Source of the DNA: an uncultured Lachnospiraceae bacterium
Lineage (GTDB): Bacteria; Bacillota; Clostridia; Lachnospirales; Lachnospiraceae
Assembly: GCA_947174185.1 (NCBI GenBank)
Contig: CAMWHY010000002.1
Span: 1-54,211 of the forward strand
Length of the DNA: 54,211 nt
Reading direction: 5' to 3'
Shown: positions 5,883 through 54,211 of the stretch, one piece after another
Numbering within the stretch: position 1 is the first letter of the stretch
Layout of the letters: every line of letters starts with the position of its first letter
Program-made: the position numbers and the translations under genes
The notes under the pieces: generated by a model
Database searches by the model: none
What the model saw: only the letters and a program-made list of their open reading frames with translations
Told to the model about the DNA's origin: nothing

Positions 5883-8284
5883 GGCATGATTTTAAGAAGA
5901 TAGAGCCCAAGTGGCAGACAAAATGGGAAGAAGCCGGGATTTTCCGCGCGCAGGATGGGGACAAAAGCCGTAAGAAATTTTACGGGCTGATCGAGTTTCC
6001 TTATCCCAGCGGAGCGGGGATGCATGTAGGCCATATCAAGGCATATTCCAGTATGGAGGTGCTTGCCAGAAAGAGGCGGATGGAAGGATATAATGTATTG
6101 TTCCCCATCGGGTTTGATGCATTTGGACTTCCTACGGAGAATTATGCGATCAAGACGTCTACCCATCCGAGGGTCATTACGGATCAGAATATTGCAAGAT
6201 TTTCCGAGCAGTTAAAGAAGGTAGGATTTTCTTTTGACTGGAGCCGTACGATCGATACGACGGATGAGGATTTTTATCACTGGACGCAGTGGATCTTTCT
6301 GAAGATGTTTGATGCGGGACTGGTATTTCAGGATAAGGCGCTGGTTAATTACTGCCCGTCTTGTAAGGTGGTGCTTTCCAATGAAGACAGTCAGGGAGGC
6401 AAATGCGATATCTGTCACAGCGACGTTGTACAGCGTTCTAAGACGGTATGGTATCTGAGGATCACAGAGTATGCGGACAAACTGTTAAGCGGTCTGGATA
6501 CGGTAGATTATCCGGAAAATATCAAGCAGCAGCAGGTGAACTGGATCGGTAAATCCACAGGTGCATTTGTGGATTTTAAGATTGCGGGTGCAGAGGATAA
6601 ATTACAGATTTATACCACCAGACCTGATACGTTGTTTGGCGTTACGTTTATGGTTATTGCACCGGAACATCCCCTGATCGATCAGTATGCAGCGAAGATC
6701 AAAAATATGGACGCTGTAGAGGCGTATCGTCAGGAATGCGTCAAGAAGACGGAATTTGAAAGAACGCAGCTGGTGAAGGAAAAGACGGGTGTGAGGCTGG
6801 AAGGCATTGAGGCGGTCAATCCGGTGAATGGCGTGAACATTCCGATTTTTATTGCGGATTATGTTATGATGGGATATGGTACTGGCGCGATTATGGCAGT
6901 TCCGGCGCATGACCAGAGAGATTATGATTTTGCGAAGAAGTTTGGCATAGATATTATTGAGGTCATCAAGGGTGGCGATATTGACAAGGAAGCTTATACC
7001 GGCGACGGCGAGATGATCAACTCTGATTTTCTGAATGGATATACCAATAAAAAGGACTCTATTGCACGGATGATCAAGGAACTGACGGAAAAGGGCATCG
7101 GCAGTGCAGGCATCCAGTTCAAAATGAAGGACTGGGCATTTAACCGCCAGAGATACTGGGGCGAGCCAATCCCCATCGTACATTGTCCGGACTGCGGTAT
7201 CGTTCCCGTACCTTATGAAGAGCTGCCGCTCAGACTGCCTAAGATAGAGAACTTTGAGCCGGGGGAGGAAGGAGAATCACCCCTTGCAAAGATTGACTCC
7301 TTTGTCAACTGCAAGTGTCCTAAATGTGGGAAAGATGCGAAGCGTGAGACAGATACCATGCCGCAGTGGGCAGGTTCTTCATGGTATTTTATCCGTTATG
7401 TGGACCCGCATAACAAGAATTGCTTTGCAGATCGTGAAAAGATTGATTACTGGATGCCGGTTGACTGGTACAACGGCGGTATGGAGCATGTGACAAGGCA
7501 CATGATCTATTCCCGTTTCTGGCATCATTTCTTATATGATATCGGAGAGGTAAACACACCAGAGCCGTATGCAAAACGTTCCGCACAGGGTCTGATTTTA
7601 GGCGCGGACGGTGAGAAGATGAGTAAATCCAGAGGAAATGTTATTGATCCTTTGGTGATCGTAGAGGAATATGGTGCAGATACCCTTCGTACTTATATCC
7701 TGTTTATGGGTGATTATGCCGCGGCATCCCCCTGGAATGACAGTTCTGTAAAGGGCTGCAAGCGTTTTCTGGAGCGTGTTGCCGTGATGGCGGATATGAT
7801 CGATGACAGCGAACCTTCTGCGGAACTGGAAAGCAGATTCCACAAAGCGATCAAGAAGGTATCCTCTGATATTGAGGAGACAAAGTTCAATACGGCGATT
7901 GCTACGTTGATGGCGCTCGTCAATGATGTTTATCAGGAAGGAAAGCTGACCAGAGATGAGATGCTCATCTTTATCAAGCTGCTGAACCCCTTTGCTCCGC
8001 ATCTTTGTGAAGAGATCTACGAGACGATGGGTGGAGAGGGATTTTTGTCACAACAGGCATGGCCTGCATATGATGAAGAGAAGACAAAAGATGCGGTAAT
8101 AGAGATCGGCGTACAGGTCAATGGCAAACTTCGCGGCACAGTAAAGATCGCTGCGGAAGCAACGAAGGAAGAGGCTCTTCAGACTGCTAAGGAGGATGCG
8201 AAGGTTGCGGAATTCTTAAGCCAGGGCTCGGTGGTAAAGGAAATCTATGTACCGGGAAAGATTGTAAACTTTGTCGTAAAATAA
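5879..8284 (+). CDS. leuS: Leucyl-tRNA synthetase
   Basis: Class I synthetase charging tRNA-Leu; 801 residues, normal for bacterial LeuRS. Begins RHDFKKIEPKWQTKWEE, followed by the HIGH-type motif HVGHIK (near residue 50), a CP1 editing domain (TTRPDTLFGVTFMV, GAIMAVPAHDQRDYDFA), zinc-binding cysteine pairs (CPSC, CDIC) and KMSKS in GEKMSKSRGNV. The C-terminal anticodon-binding and tail domains are complete. ATG 5879 is the only start that keeps the conserved N-terminus. It is expressed from its own promoter. Confidence 0.97.
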   Translation: MRHDFKKIEPKWQTKWEEAGIFRAQDGDKSRKKFYGLIEFPYPSGAGMHVGHIKAYSSMEVLARKRRMEGYNVLFPIGFDAFGLPTENYAIKTSTHPRVITDQNIARFSEQLKKVGFSFDWSRTIDTTDEDFYHWTQWIFLKMFDAGLVFQDKALVNYCPSCKVVLSNEDSQGGKCDICHSDVVQRSKTVWYLRITEYADKLLSGLDTVDYPENIKQQQVNWIGKSTGAFVDFKIAGAEDKLQIYTTRPDTLFGVTFMVIAPEHPLIDQYAAKIKNMDAVEAYRQECVKKTEFERTQLVKEKTGVRLEGIEAVNPVNGVNIPIFIADYVMMGYGTGAIMAVPAHDQRDYDFAKKFGIDIIEVIKGGDIDKEAYTGDGEMINSDFLNGYTNKKDSIARMIKELTEKGIGSAGIQFKMKDWAFNRQRYWGEPIPIVHCPDCGIVPVPYEELPLRLPKIENFEPGEEGESPLAKIDSFVNCKCPKCGKDAKRETDTMPQWAGSSWYFIRYVDPHNKNCFADREKIDYWMPVDWYNGGMEHVTRHMIYSRFWHHFLYDIGEVNTPEPYAKRSAQGLILGADGEKMSKSRGNVIDPLVIVEEYGADTLRTYILFMGDYAAASPWNDSSVKGCKRFLERVAVMADMIDDSEPSAELESRFHKAIKKVSSDIEETKFNTAIATLMALVNDVYQEGKLTRDEMLIFIKLLNPFAPHLCEEIYETMGGEGFLSQQAWPAYDEEKTKDAVIEIGVQVNGKLRGTVKIAAEATKEEALQTAKEDAKVAEFLSQGSVVKEIYVPGKIVNFVVK

Positions 8285-9211: not shown

Positions 9212-10867
9212 TTGCTGCAATTGGCAGAAGTGATCATAAGCATTATATTGGCGATCCCTGTTTTTTATCTGGTGATGCGCTATAATCTCCATATGTTTCA
9301 GTTAAACGGCTATAAGAACAATGAGCAGCGGTCATGGATCAAAAAAAACCTGCGGAAACAGCTGATGCTTATTTTTCCGGGATTGGCAGGCGTTTTTTTG
9401 ATGATATTCCCGGCAGACTGGTTGAGGATTGTCCTTTGCATTTATTGGCTGATCGTCATAAAGTATTATAGCTATTTAAAGAAAAACAATTCGAAAAAAA
9501 AGCTGGTATTTACGAAAAGGGTGCAGAGACTGATCATTACGGATCTGATATTAAATCTGATCGTGATTATCCCGGTAATTTATTTTCTCGGATATCTATA
9601 TCTGCCCGCAGTTATGGGACTGCTGATTCCATTGCAGGCGGTTCTTCTGATTCCTGTCAATGTGATCAACCGTCCGATAGAGAAGGCAGTCAATCGGTAT
9701 TTTATCAATGATGCAAAGAAAAAACTGAAACAGGTATCCGGTCTTACGGTGATCGGTGTGACAGGCAGCTATGGAAAGACCAGTGTGAAATTTTATCTAC
9801 AGGCATTGCTGCAAGGACGTTTTCATGTGCTTGTGACGCCTGAAAGTTACAATACGCCCATGGGGGTGGTAAAGACGATCCGGGAGTCGCTACAGCCGAC
9901 GCATGAAATCTTTGTGTGTGAAATGGGCGCGAGATATGTGGGAGACATCAAGGAAATCTGTGAGATCGTTCACCCGGCGCATGGTGTGATCACGTCCATC
10001 GGACCACAGCATCTGGAGACATTTGGCGGGATGGAGCATATCGTGGATACGAAATTTGAACTGGCGGATGCGCTGCCGGAAGGCGGATTCTTATTTCTGA
10101 ATGGCGATAATGAGTGGATTGTTGAAAGAAGTAAACGCTATCATAGGACAGAAGCCGGCAATGCAGGAACCTTCGAAGAATTCTCCAAAGAAGGCAAACG
10201 GAAAGATCAGACGGCGATTAAGGGGGATCGAAAGGTCATATTCTACAGAAATCAGGTTTCAGGTGAAGGCTATCAGGCGGGAAATCTTCATCTGTCGCAG
10301 CTGGGTACGGAATTTGATGTGACTGCACCTGATGGAGAAACAGAGACTTTTCAGACCAGACTTGTGGGGGAGCATAACGTCATCAACATCATCGGCGCGA
10401 TCGCGGTGGCGCATACCCTTGGAATTCCTTTGAAGGAATTAAAGGTTCCTGTCAGACGGTTACAGCCGATTCCGCATAGAATGCAGATGTTAGAACAGGG
10501 CAATGTAACGATCATCGATGATGCCTATAATTCCAATCCTGTCGGCTCCAAAGCCGCAGTAGAGACACTTGCTCTGTTTGACGGAATCAGGATACTGATT
10601 ACGCCGGGAATGGTGGAACTGGGAAAGGAAGAAGACTTGTATAATTATAAATTCGGTACTTATGCGGCAAAGTGCTGCGACTATATCCTTCTGGTTGGCA
10701 GGGAGCATGTACGTCCGATTCAAAAGGGTGCAGTGGAGAGCGGCTTTGATGAGAAGAGATGTCTTATGTATGACGATCTAAAGGATGCGCTTGCCTTTGC
10801 ATATAGTATGAAAGGTGATGGGCATAAGTATATTCTGTTGGAGAACGATTTGCCGGATAATTATTAA
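9212..10867 (+). CDS. Membrane-embedded MurF-like Mur ligase
   Basis: 551 residues. The central and C-terminal Mur ligase domains are MurF-like: P-loop GVTGSYGKTS (about residue 184), EMGARYVGDIKEI, SIGPQHLETFGG, GEHNVINIIGA and the MurF-type IDDAYNSNPVGSKAAV. The usual N-terminal MurF domain that binds the UDP-MurNAc-tripeptide is missing. In its place are about 150 residues with roughly five hydrophobic helices (about 4-26, 48-66, 68-86, 108-127, 130-150). It may therefore act on a membrane-linked acceptor instead of the soluble nucleotide precursor. The start is TTG 9212 with GAGGAGG 9 nt upstream. Adjacent ddl would supply a D-Ala dipeptide. Confidence 0.8.
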   Translation: MLQLAEVIISIILAIPVFYLVMRYNLHMFQLNGYKNNEQRSWIKKNLRKQLMLIFPGLAGVFLMIFPADWLRIVLCIYWLIVIKYYSYLKKNNSKKKLVFTKRVQRLIITDLILNLIVIIPVIYFLGYLYLPAVMGLLIPLQAVLLIPVNVINRPIEKAVNRYFINDAKKKLKQVSGLTVIGVTGSYGKTSVKFYLQALLQGRFHVLVTPESYNTPMGVVKTIRESLQPTHEIFVCEMGARYVGDIKEICEIVHPAHGVITSIGPQHLETFGGMEHIVDTKFELADALPEGGFLFLNGDNEWIVERSKRYHRTEAGNAGTFEEFSKEGKRKDQTAIKGDRKVIFYRNQVSGEGYQAGNLHLSQLGTEFDVTAPDGETETFQTRLVGEHNVINIIGAIAVAHTLGIPLKELKVPVRRLQPIPHRMQMLEQGNVTIIDDAYNSNPVGSKAAVETLALFDGIRILITPGMVELGKEEDLYNYKFGTYAAKCCDYILLVGREHVRPIQKGAVESGFDEKRCLMYDDLKDALAFAYSMKGDGHKYILLENDLPDNY

Positions 10868-51099: not shown

Positions 51100-51144
51100 G
51101 AGATTATGGTATTGTGATATTGTTTTACCCAACAGGATGATGAT

Positions 51145-51180
51145 AACGGGCAGGAAGGTTCCTGCCTGTTATTTTCTTTC
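51145..51180 (+). terminator. Terminator after the J-domain gene
   Basis: AACGGGCAGGAA-GG-TTCCTGCCTGTT, a 12-bp stem with one G-T pair, followed by ATTTTCTTTC. It isolates the sigma-factor unit. Confidence 0.87.
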
Positions 51181-51213: not shown

Positions 51214-51243
51214 CCCAACCTTTTATGCAAAATTGGAATCTAT
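51214..51243 (+). promoter_or_regulatory. ECF-type promoter of the membrane sigma-factor gene
   Basis: CCCAACCTTTTAT (from 51214) resembles an AACC-type ECF -35; TCTAT at 51239-51243 follows after exactly 18 nt. The same motif pair with the same spacing is at 54021-54050. No sigma-A hexamers are apparent. Autoregulation is inferred. Confidence 0.65.
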
Positions 51244-51262
51244 AGAATAAAAGGAGGAAAAG

Positions 51263-51283
51263 TTGCCAAAGGCTAACAAATAG
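51263..51283 (+). CDS. Short upstream ORF in the sigma-factor leader
   Basis: GGAGG (51253-51257), 5 nt, TTG and five further codons to a TAG stop (Met-Pro-Lys-Ala-Asn-Lys if the TTG is read as start). A second ribosome binding site, AAAGGAGG, then serves the sigma gene. The same layout occurs at 54070-54087, which argues for a used leader peptide, but the peptides differ. Confidence 0.4.
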   Translation: MPKANK

Positions 51284-51306
51284 GCAGAACCTGAAAGGAG
51301 GATCAA

Positions 51307-52995
51307 ATGGATAAAGATCAGTTAAGTAAGTTAGTTGAGAAGATCAGGCAGGGTGATCAGGCGTCGTTTGAGGAACTGTATTCCATCAGCAGCAGGTCGA
51401 TATATTTTACCTGCATCAGCTTCCTGCGTAATGAGGAGGATGCAAAGGATGTAATGCAGGACGTTTATATCACTGTTTATGAGAAGATCAACTCGCTTAA
51501 CGATGCGGAAAAACTTATTTCGTGGATGAACAAGATCGCGATAAATAAGTGTAAGAAGCTACTGATGAAAAGAACAGTTGTTTTTAAGGACGTTGAAAAT
51601 CCAGGTGATGAGCCGACGGAGGAAAACGAAAATTTCCTGCCTGAGGAGTTCATCACCCAAAAGGAGAAAAGGAAACTGGTAATGGATATCATGAGGAACA
51701 CCCTTTCCGATATCCAGTACAAAACGGTCATACTTTATTATTTTAACGGATTGTCAATAGAGGAGACCGCGAACATTATGGAATGCCCGCCCGGAACGGT
51801 AAAGTACAGACTGAGCGTTGCCCGTGCCAAGATCAGGGATGGTGTGGATGCATATGAAAACAGAAGTGGTGACAAACTCTACTCTATCGTGGGACTGCCG
51901 CTGCTGATGAGGCTGCTTTGTGAGGAAGCGGAATCTATGGAAGTTCCGGATATGCTTCAGGAAATGATGGAAGCCGTCAGCTCACATCTTGCGACAGGGG
52001 CGGCGGAAAGCGCTGCAGCCGCGGGAGAAACGGCAGGAAAAAGTGCTTTCATGGTTAAAATCGGAATAGCGGCAGCTGTGGTGGCGGCAATCGTCGTAGG
52101 CGCGGTATTCTTCATTAAAAACAGCGGTGCCGGGGAAGAAGACGCACCGGAGCAGTCTTCAGTAAGTGAAGATATACAGGAGGAGGTATCAGTAAGCGAA
52201 GACACACCGGAGCAGGCATCCGTATCATCCGTTGACTGGTACGCTGTTGAGGATTATGGCTGCCTCCCGTTCTATTTAAAGTATGCCGATTTAGGATCGC
52301 TGGAGGAGAATGATTTTAGCAGTCTTATGATCAATGATACGTTTGCTTATGGCGCAAGTCTGGAGGAGATATTACCATCGTATCAATATATTCTGGTTGA
52401 CGGCGAGGAATGCGATTTTTCCACAGGACAGACGGGATATGCAGATGATCATACGCTGGGTGCAAATGAGATGGTGGAGCTAGATTGTTATACTGAGGAG
52501 GGAAACTATAACAATAATATAACCATAGCAATTTGTAATCTGTCAGATTCCGAGGCCACGATCAGGGAGTGTATAGAAAATGATTGGTTTATCTGTAATG
52601 CAGAAAACGACATGCTTGGTACGTTACTTGACCTTGATAAAAGAGAGGAACTTGCAAAGCTGGTAGGGATTTTGGGAAAACCAACCATGGTAACATATGA
52701 CAGTAATTCTTGGTGGGAGGTGAGAGATGAAGAGGAAGAGACATTTGCTGAGACTGTCTCTAAAGGCGGCGGATATATTAACTATAATATAGTATATATC
52801 AAAGGAGATCATATCCTGAGCCTAAATATTGCTGAATCTAATACCCCGGCGGGAGTTGATACCTGGGTGTATTTGCTATATCTGACGCAGGACGTTTATG
52901 ATTATCTGCTGGAGAACGACAGCGTTATCAATTCAGCTTCATATATTTATGAAGCTTCATATATCATGAGCGACAAGATTTATGATTTTGAATGA
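51307..52995 (+). CDS. ECF-type sigma factor fused to a membrane helix and extracytoplasmic domain
   Basis: 562 residues. Sigma region 2 (about 10-80: GDQASFEELYSISSRSIYF, RNEEDAKDVMQDVYITVYE) and region 4 (about 125-180: LSDIQYKTVILYYFNGLSIEE, CPPGTVKYRLSVARAKIRDG) are complete. A linker of about 65 residues, a membrane helix (about 250-273, IGIAAAVVAAIVVGAVFFI), a Ser/Glu-rich stalk (VSEDTPEQASVSS) and about 260 residues outside follow. Sigma factor and sensor are thus one chain; no separate anti-sigma gene is seen. Release by proteolysis or direct action from the membrane are both possible. ATG 51307 follows AAAGGAGG. Its own ECF-like promoter suggests autoregulation. Confidence 0.88.
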   Translation: MDKDQLSKLVEKIRQGDQASFEELYSISSRSIYFTCISFLRNEEDAKDVMQDVYITVYEKINSLNDAEKLISWMNKIAINKCKKLLMKRTVVFKDVENPGDEPTEENENFLPEEFITQKEKRKLVMDIMRNTLSDIQYKTVILYYFNGLSIEETANIMECPPGTVKYRLSVARAKIRDGVDAYENRSGDKLYSIVGLPLLMRLLCEEAESMEVPDMLQEMMEAVSSHLATGAAESAAAAGETAGKSAFMVKIGIAAAVVAAIVVGAVFFIKNSGAGEEDAPEQSSVSEDIQEEVSVSEDTPEQASVSSVDWYAVEDYGCLPFYLKYADLGSLEENDFSSLMINDTFAYGASLEEILPSYQYILVDGEECDFSTGQTGYADDHTLGANEMVELDCYTEEGNYNNNITIAICNLSDSEATIRECIENDWFICNAENDMLGTLLDLDKREELAKLVGILGKPTMVTYDSNSWWEVRDEEEETFAETVSKGGGYINYNIVYIKGDHILSLNIAESNTPAGVDTWVYLLYLTQDVYDYLLENDSVINSASYIYEASYIMSDKIYDFE

Positions 52996-53012
52996 TTAAG
53001 GAGGATAAAATA

Positions 53013-53918
53013 TTGAAAGCAAAGGACGTTTATTTTGGGACGATGAAGTTCGTCTGGATAAAACTGGGGATGGGGGTTGCAGTAACGCTTGTGGGAGCTA
53101 TTCTGCTTGCGCTCTTTATGCTGCTTGGTTCGCTTTTTGGGGGAGCAGGTTTATACATAATGTTTATTGTATGGATGGCATGTATTGGGGTTATATATAA
53201 TGTTTTCATGCACTATTTTGGGTATCTTGTCAAGGCCGGGCATGTTGCGGTGATTGCGGAAGCAGTAACAACCGGGAAGCTGCCGGAGAACCAGTTTGAG
53301 TATGGTAAGGAGATGGTGAAGTCCCGTTTTGTTGCAAGCAATGTATATTTTGTGGTTGACCGTCTGGTGAGCGGGGCAGTAAGCCAGCTGAAAAAGGCTG
53401 TCGGCAAAATCGGCGGGATGCTGGATGCCATTCCGGGAATGGATACGCTGACTAAATTTCTGCAGACGTTTATTGGAATCGCCCTTGGTTATGTGGATGA
53501 ATGTTGTCTGGGATACTGCTTTATCAAAAAAGAAGAAGGCGCATTTAAGGCGTCCTGTGACGGCGTGGTGATTTATTTCCAGAATGCAAAGAAGTTGTTA
53601 AAGGATGCGCTCATTACCACAGTGATTGTGATGATTGGGACATTTTTATGCTGGGTGGTTCCCTTCGCGCTCTTTGGAGCAGCCTTCCGCGCATTTGATT
53701 GGAATATGTTAGGCGCGGTATTACTTGCGCTGATGTTTGCCATAGCGTTAAAATCTGCGTTTATCGACAGCTGGATGTTGGTTAAAATGATGGTATCTTA
53801 TATGGAGGTTGCACCTTCGACCCAGATAACATATGATCTTTATGATAAACTGTGTAAATTATCCGGTAAATTCAAGGAACTTTTCGGAAAGGCAAAAGAG
53901 GAAGATCCGGCATTATAG
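53013..53918 (+). CDS. Uncharacterised multi-span membrane protein co-transcribed with the sigma factor
   Basis: About 301 residues. Two hydrophobic helices near the N-terminus (LGMGVAVTLVGAILLALFML, LYIMFIVWMACIGVIYNVF), an amphipathic middle (VVDRLVSGAVSQLKKAVGKI), then helices near residues 190-245 (ALITTVIVMIGTFLCWVVPF, LGAVLLALMFAIALKSAFI) and a Lys-rich tail. I do not recognise the family by function. The best start is TTG 53013, 8 nt after AAGGAGG; ATG 52992 overlaps the sigma stop. It is probably in the sigma operon, so it may be a partner or target of that regulator. Confidence 0.7.
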   Translation: MKAKDVYFGTMKFVWIKLGMGVAVTLVGAILLALFMLLGSLFGGAGLYIMFIVWMACIGVIYNVFMHYFGYLVKAGHVAVIAEAVTTGKLPENQFEYGKEMVKSRFVASNVYFVVDRLVSGAVSQLKKAVGKIGGMLDAIPGMDTLTKFLQTFIGIALGYVDECCLGYCFIKKEEGAFKASCDGVVIYFQNAKKLLKDALITTVIVMIGTFLCWVVPFALFGAAFRAFDWNMLGAVLLALMFAIALKSAFIDSWMLVKMMVSYMEVAPSTQITYDLYDKLCKLSGKFKELFGKAKEEDPAL

Positions 53919-53970
53919 CTATATCATAAAAGAAGGAGTGTCATATTATACAATAGGCTATTAGAAAAGG

Positions 53971-54005
53971 ATCCCTATGCTGAAGTAAGGCATAGGGATT
54001 TTTTA
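53971..54005 (+). terminator. Terminator of the sigma-factor operon
   Basis: ATCCCTATGC (53971-53980) and GCATAGGGAT (53990-53999), a perfect 10-bp stem with a 9-nt loop, followed by a T run. Confidence 0.92.
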
Positions 54006-54020
54006 GTAAAAAATAAAAAA

Positions 54021-54050
54021 CCCAACCTTTTATTAAATAAAAGAATCTAT
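54021..54050 (+). promoter_or_regulatory. Second ECF-type promoter, matching that of the sigma gene
   Basis: CCCAACCTTTTAT (from 54021) and TCTAT (54046-54050) with the same 18-nt spacing as at 51214-51243, followed by a similar leader. It should drive the gene that starts at the window edge. Confidence 0.6.
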
Positions 54051-54069
54051 CTATATAAAGGAGGTAAAA

Positions 54070-54087
54070 TTGCGTAATATGGACTAA
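54070..54087 (+). CDS. Short upstream ORF in the second ECF leader
   Basis: GGAGG (54060-54064), 5 nt, TTG and four more codons to TAA. AAAGGAGG at about 54102-54109 follows, as in the sigma leader. Confidence 0.35.
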   Translation: MRNMD

Positions 54088-54111
54088 ATTCGCAGACCAT
54101 GAAAGGAGGTA

Positions 54112-54191
54112 AAAACGAATTAATTCGTTTTGCAAATATTGTGCCTGTGGCCCAAATTCGCAGGTTACGGAAAGGCAAGGTTATTAAGATG
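54112..54191 (+). repeat. Dispersed leader cassette, copy C
   Basis: AAAACGAA-TTAA-TTCGTTTT (54112-54131), GCAAATATTGTGCCTG, a CCTGTG/CGCAGG hairpin (with a G-U in place of the C-G of copy A), GGAAAGG at 54169-54175, 13 nt, and ATG at 54189. It sits directly after the normal AAAGGAGG site, as if inserted between that site and the gene. Confidence 0.7.
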
Positions 54192-54211
54192 AAAATGGAA
54201 GAAAATCGATT
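54189..54211 (+). CDS. Start of a gene cut by the window edge
   Basis: ATG AAA ATG GAA GAA AAT CGA and two more bases; only about seven residues (MKMEENR) are visible, so no function can be given. It begins at the ATG supplied by cassette copy C and is presumably under the ECF-type promoter at 54021. Confidence 0.4.

Follow-up and report, generated by a model that had tools for sequence, protein, structure and literature searches.

Which sigma factor reads two nearly identical promoter-like sites at the end of a Lachnospiraceae contig, and which genes do these sites serve? The sites lie in contig CAMWHY010000002.1 of an uncultured Lachnospiraceae bacterium (assembly GCA_947174185.1), and the whole 54,211-nt stretch, here called the window, makes up an entire contig (C2) of a searched genome of 2,963,768 bases in 200 contigs. 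Promoter A precedes gene A, which encodes an extracytoplasmic function (ECF) sigma factor of 562 amino acids, and promoter B precedes gene B, which is cut by the contig end; all features of the window described below are on the forward (+) strand. From comparison of the sequences we consider it probable that both sites are ECF-type promoters of the form AAC-N17-AATCTAT belonging to autoregulated, possibly cross-activating, membrane-tethered ECF factors.

Two matching promoter-like sites at the end of the contig

The -35 block CCCAACCTTTTAT is located at 51214..51226 in promoter A and at 54021..54033 in promoter B by reading of the sequence, pattern search, promoter alignment and conservation between A and B, and the -10 block GAATCTAT at 51236..51243 and 54043..54050 by the same means except the pattern search. 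A preliminary description of this DNA had reported CCCAACCTTTTAT followed by TCTAT with equal spacing at both places, and this was confirmed: the elements begin at 51214 and 51239 in A and at 54021 and 54046 in B, the gap between AACC and TCTAT is 18 nt at both, and CCAACCTTTT-N14-TCTAT spans 51215-51243 and 54022-54050. The -10 block common to the two sites is wider than TCTAT, giving the geometry AAC-N17-AATCTAT. The 18-nt spacing is no rule of the family, since promoter B of both relatives with a comparable locus (L018, a contig of G018, and L019, a contig of G008) has one more base in the spacer. The AACC-type -35 had been called known for ECF factors, in agreement with the available text of PMC8103513, which gives AAC -35 boxes and positive autoregulation as usual features of ECF factors, about 55% of which are predicted to be autoregulated, and a CGT-type -10 as usual but no longer defining.

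The strict pattern CCAACCTTTT-N(12-16)-TCTAT has two matches in the whole genome, both in the window, and the reversed-pattern control has none. The pattern was also found in 0/100 dinucleotide shuffles of the window, a test for which it had been picked after the two sites had been seen. Allowing up to three mismatches in an extended pattern yielded six sites in the genome versus two control sites; the one convincing extra site is C164:5051 (two mismatches), which was found by motif alone and lies ahead of the opening codons of a further sigma gene copy. A search of 60 genomes gave the exact motif at seven places in four of them, all seven before genes of the family (reversed control, two places), and among the 60 only genomes with the present sigma family carry it.

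Occurrence of the motif across the sigma family

A relaxed form of the motif, AA[CT]-N(16-18)-NN-TCTAT, is present upstream of 16/17 family members and of 1/10 other sigma-like genes of the genome, while shuffles of the same 17 regions gave a mean of 0.80/17 and a maximum of 4/17 (300 rounds); C99, G018 C3b, G051, G055, G079, G149 and G163, whose upstream DNA is missing or unread, stand outside these 17. The -35 element of the 16 motif-bearing regions is AAC in 11 and AAT in five (C109_3, G012, C1, C182 and C3a). The -10 element is AATCTAT in the A- and B-type copies and in G022, TATCTAT in five more close copies and CGTCTAT in four distant copies, the last four being positioned by eye among relaxed matches, with a second match under a looser pattern in one region. 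The distant paralogues, whose sigma modules are 42-55% identical, keep AA[CT]-N17-NNTCTAT in 4/4 cases, which was reproduced in 0/300 shuffle rounds. The AAC-type -35, the ECF-like spacing, the blocks conserved between diverged flanks and the presence in 16 of 17 family members all uphold the view that the sites are ECF-promoter-like. As for the sequence predicted to be recognised by this sigma factor, recognition by the present family would be the simplest explanation, with a -10 element wider than had been proposed.

A side observation concerns the NKCK[KDQ] motif of sigma region 2 (aa 80-84). In the four members with a CGTCTAT element its last residue is D, whereas the 10 close members that have AATCTAT or TATCTAT, and in which residue and -10 were both read, carry K or Q there. 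This difference is a possible lead on the residues that read the -10 element, and it may stem from as few as one or two events in evolution. At the second position, K versus L, R or H follows AAT versus TAT, but this relation fails if contig C99 belongs to contig C164.

Another reading is that the promoters are real but are read by a different sigma factor, either another ECF factor or one master paralogue, so that gene A is controlled externally. A protein search of the genome gave 10 more sigma-factor-like genes that do not belong to the family (L008-L017), of which L016 also has a relaxed-pattern match upstream, and hierarchical control is known among ECF paralogues from EcfG, as far as the consulted sections of PMC8103513 describe it. 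We nevertheless regard this reading as unlikely, for the exact motif is confined to family-carrying genomes among the 60, the -10 variants track the sigma clade, and a simple scan shows no housekeeping-type promoter at either site.

Promoter conservation and exchange of ectodomains

In the window, promoters A and B are identical at 11/11 positions of the -35 block and 8/8 of the -10 block (19/19 together), while outside the blocks the identity is 5/11 in the spacer, 3/8 in the eight bases downstream and 18/40 in the 40 bases upstream. In the tandem pair of L018, the promoter blocks are identical at 18/19 positions and the fourfold sites of the sigma module at 35/49. Identical blocks amid diverged spacer, flanks and fourfold sites point to constraint beyond common descent. 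It is therefore very improbable that the similarity of the sites is merely the relic of a recent duplication including upstream DNA, with a functionless motif: terminator, promoter, leader and sigma module do appear to have been copied as a single block in several paralogues, but the blocks of the window pair are fully identical against 38-71% for spacer, flanks and fourfold sites, and the distant paralogues have kept the motif as described above.

The sensor parts have a different history from the sigma modules, and ectodomains have been exchanged between paralogues. In its sigma module, C94 is 78-86% identical with the close clade and 53-55% with C182 and C3, while its ectodomain has 41-50% identity to C182 and C3 and at most 30% to A and B. 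Similarly, the sigma modules of C109_3 and G012 share 95% identity with each other, 72-86% with other close members and 49-50% with C21, while their ectodomains are 54% (C109_3, 177 aa) and 84% (G012, 66 aa) identical to that of C21 and match A and B not at all or in short or weak stretches only (36-100 aa). In C94, C109_3 and G012 the promoter type follows the sigma module, as expected for autoregulation, and adjacency alone could yield the same. The family is sparsely distributed, being found at E <= 1e-40 in 5/35 genomes of the genus and at E <= 1e-45 in four of 397 genomes drawn from the family-level group (three candidates scored per genome), the present genome included in both cases.

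The genes behind promoter B

L018 and L019 have the same gene order as the window, and behind their promoter B lies a tandem sigma paralogue (start at 7085 in L018 and at about 10310 in L019, where the gene is also truncated by the contig end) beginning MKMEGNRLG or MKMEENRLG. The window's gene B (54189..54211), read as far as its first seven codons, MKMEENR, fits this start. The unit behind promoter B is thus a tandem sigma paralogue with its own copy of the promoter, and it names no independent target. The proposals of a two-unit regulon and of at least one target gene could not be sustained, since the second unit is, judging from the two relatives, another copy of the sigma gene, and the searches made yielded nothing convincing outside the family. 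An independent target behind the second site, making a regulon of the sigma gene and that target, can be dismissed as extremely improbable. Although the window stops seven codons into gene B and does not by itself reveal its identity, MKMEENR and its position agree with the tandem paralogue of L018 and L019, and the last 55 nt of the window recur at the start of contig C99, where a family member is encoded.

These 55 nt (54157-54211) are identical to the start of C99, and C164 ends in the same 55 nt. C99 was rejected as the plain continuation of the window, since C164 has an identical end and the gene order favours C164-C99; the genes following on C99 match DNA just behind the aldo/keto-reductase gene of the relative, which is located on C164 here. 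C99 more probably continues C164, and with this assignment gene B of the present genome is known for seven codons only. The sharing of 55 nt by the ends of two contigs and the start of a third may reflect a break of the assembly where the sigma gene is repeated, or recombination between copies in the sampled population.

Two further features were seen in the relatives. L018 has a stand-alone gene for a transmembrane segment and ectodomain lacking a sigma module between its sigma genes A and B (5902-6891), which may act as a decoy or regulator or be a remnant. L019 has an apparent insertion-sequence remnant just upstream of promoter B (9410-10019, read by eye), which has taken the place of the left half of the terminator hairpin before it and left the promoter intact.

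A predicted membrane-fused ECF factor and its relation to known systems

The product of gene A (51307..52995) joins an ECF sigma2-sigma4 module to a single predicted transmembrane helix and a predicted ectodomain. The module (51394..51834) comprises regions 2 and 4 only (Pfam, aa 30-89 and 135-176), Sigma70_r2 and Sigma70_r4_2 being found in 12/12 members, and its nearest solved structures are SigW (5wuq), SigH and RpoE. Hydropathy alone predicts the helix, from the one strong hydrophobic segment at aa 252-270 (52060..52116). About 290 residues lie beyond it, including the predicted ectodomain (aa 308-562, 52228..52992), and have no Pfam family. No zinc-finger anti-sigma domain is among the 25 families listed by Pfam for the 12 members at E <= 0.5.

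In the available portions of PMC5826349 and PMC8999054, ECF52 (SCO4117 of Streptomyces coelicolor), ECF48 and ECF53 resemble the present family in being single chains with an N-terminal ECF module, a transmembrane segment and an extracellular part, and a C-terminal fusion with a transmembrane segment is likewise present here by hydropathy. There, too, a motif in the gene's own promoter suggests autoregulation, and proteolytic release has been proposed. Those portions confine ECF52 to Actinobacteria and give it a zinc-finger anti-sigma domain and a carbohydrate-binding module, whereas the present family occurs in a Lachnospiraceae-type host, its close relatives being metagenome-assembled genomes of Lachnospiraceae (so that it is not restricted to Actinobacteria), has no zinc finger listed by Pfam and has an ectodomain without a match to any Pfam family. 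According to the same parts of PMC8999054, proteolytic activation is described for IutY of Pseudomonas putida (ECF243) and expected for ECF48, ECF52 and ECF53. IutY also has its ECF part fused to a membrane anti-sigma part, but it differs by its role in Gram-negative siderophore signalling, its unrelated ectodomain and, as far as that text goes, the lack of a tandem family with swapped sensors.

SigI/RsgI of Clostridium thermocellum is similar in that, by the accessible accounts in PMC6056542 and PMC12203970, several autoregulated sigma paralogues occur per clostridial genome, each with a different extracellular sensor, and cross-talk is limited and set by promoter sequence. However, SigI is of another family and RsgI is a separate protein, while sensor and sigma factor form one chain here and the close paralogues have nearly identical promoters; no separate RsgI-type anti-sigma gene adjoins the sigma gene, whose neighbour encodes a membrane protein. 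Canonical ECF factors such as SigW (5wuq) share the sigma2-sigma4 module and the AAC-type -35, but have a separate anti-sigma gene, no fused membrane part and a CGT-type -10. A membrane-fused ECF family of Lachnospiraceae or Firmicutes recognisable as the present one did not turn up in the literature searches made, and the re-classification of ECF factors (10.1093/nar/gkaa1229) may include it. Autoregulated AAC promoters and membrane-fused ECF factors are thus known, and the unusual part is a fusion family with swapped sensors.

Targets outside the family and evidence against autoregulation

A sequence-only model of 12 promoters was run on six genomes (150 first-look candidates scored per genome), and all 12 matches at E <= 1.7e-7 were training sites, the next having E 0.15. 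Since this model is circular for its 12 sites, it tells only that further strong sites are lacking. With a model built from seven promoters, run on five genomes with the sigma family and seven lacking it, four of five held-out promoters were recovered, namely C164 (5.1e-5), C1 (6.8e-4), G012 (0.014) and C94 (0.0155). The three further 3-mismatch sites in the genome compare with two control sites. In all, the exact pattern, the 3-mismatch pattern and the 12- and 7-promoter models gave no convincing target beyond the family, and they may miss weaker targets. The genome-wide enrichment of the motif that had been suggested as a check was therefore seen in part, being tied to one gene family, with no convincing sites before other genes.

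Several observations weigh against autoregulated, membrane-tethered factors reading these promoters. The distant homologue G023 is the sole one of the 17 upstream regions that lacks the motif, and the CGT-type -10 usual for ECF factors does not occur in the 12 close members, which have AATCTAT or TATCTAT. The seven-promoter model missed C109_3 at E <= 0.5 and gave a non-family site in G015 an E of 0.013, better than two of its four recovered sites, so that only C164 and C1 are clearly above background among the held-out promoters. Moreover, promoter and sigma module are adjacent and are duplicated together, so their co-occurrence is partly linkage. As for the protein, we infer membrane retention and release of the sigma module with sequence as the sole basis; G000, G018 and G008 do have a member of the site-2 protease family, yet so do 14/14 control genomes, and its presence does not discriminate but shows the proteolytic route to be possible.

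Gene arrangement at the window end

Promoter A starts about 40 nt after the intrinsic terminator of the preceding DnaJ-domain gene (51142..51173, a 14-pair stem with a T-rich tail). It is followed by an early Shine-Dalgarno sequence (AGGAGG, 51252-51257) and a possible leader open reading frame (ORF) running from TTG to TAG (51263-51283, MPKANK), and promoter B is followed likewise by an early Shine-Dalgarno sequence (54059-54064) and a possible ORF from TTG to TAA (54070-54087, MRNMD). An early GGAGG lies 8-9 nt past the -10 in 12/12 close family members, so that the transcript would start nearly at the Shine-Dalgarno sequence; a start codon (TTG in 11, ATG in one) and a short ORF of 2-16 codons come after it, and in G012 this ORF continues in frame into the sigma gene. 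This ORF may code for a leader peptide or provide an upstream start. Sigma gene B is separated from its early ORF by an insert containing small hairpins (54088-54188; 10140-10310 in L019; 2130-2240 in L033), which is missing in L018 and has other lengths in L019 and contig C164.

Downstream of gene A lies a gene with a TTG start for a membrane protein of 301 aa (53013..53918) that has no Pfam match above the cut-off. It is probably on one transcript with gene A, and the terminator scan found no internal terminator above chance. Genes of this type occur in 6/60 genomes, directly behind the sigma gene in G000, G018 and G008, on a different contig from the sigma gene in G022, and in G011, which has no sigma homologue. 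A terminator-like hairpin, ATCCCTATGC...GCATAGGGAT and then Ts (53971..54004), was read from the sequence ahead of promoter B; it is absent from the list of the terminator scan because its loop exceeds the allowed length.

Proposed regulation and significance

Taking these data together, we assume that each ECF-type promoter drives one of the tandem copies of a gene for a membrane-anchored sigma factor, whose fused C-terminal part would at rest hold the sigma module at the membrane and keep it inactive. On a signal to the ectodomain the module would be freed or exposed, most likely by stepwise proteolysis of the kind proposed for ECF52 and shown for IutY, and it would then read the promoter of its own operon, comprising the sigma gene and the membrane-protein gene at 53013, in positive feedback. 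Given how closely the copies resemble one another in sigma module and promoter, it would probably also read the promoters of its paralogues. More tentatively, and with less than even confidence, the copies might form a closed cross-activating network with one promoter code and several tethered ECF factors with exchangeable sensors, in which the sigma operons are the chief targets that can be detected and new sensors are recombined downstream of a conserved promoter-sigma cassette. If so, different extracellular signals would converge on the same promoters.

To our knowledge, single-chain membrane-tethered sigma factors are found mainly in Actinobacteria and a few Gram-negative bacteria, and they are barely characterised. 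With near-identical sigma modules, matching promoters and swapped ectodomains, the present family is a natural variant set for studying how a fused sigma factor is activated, and the same set bears on the cross-talk between paralogues and on the residues that read the -10 element.
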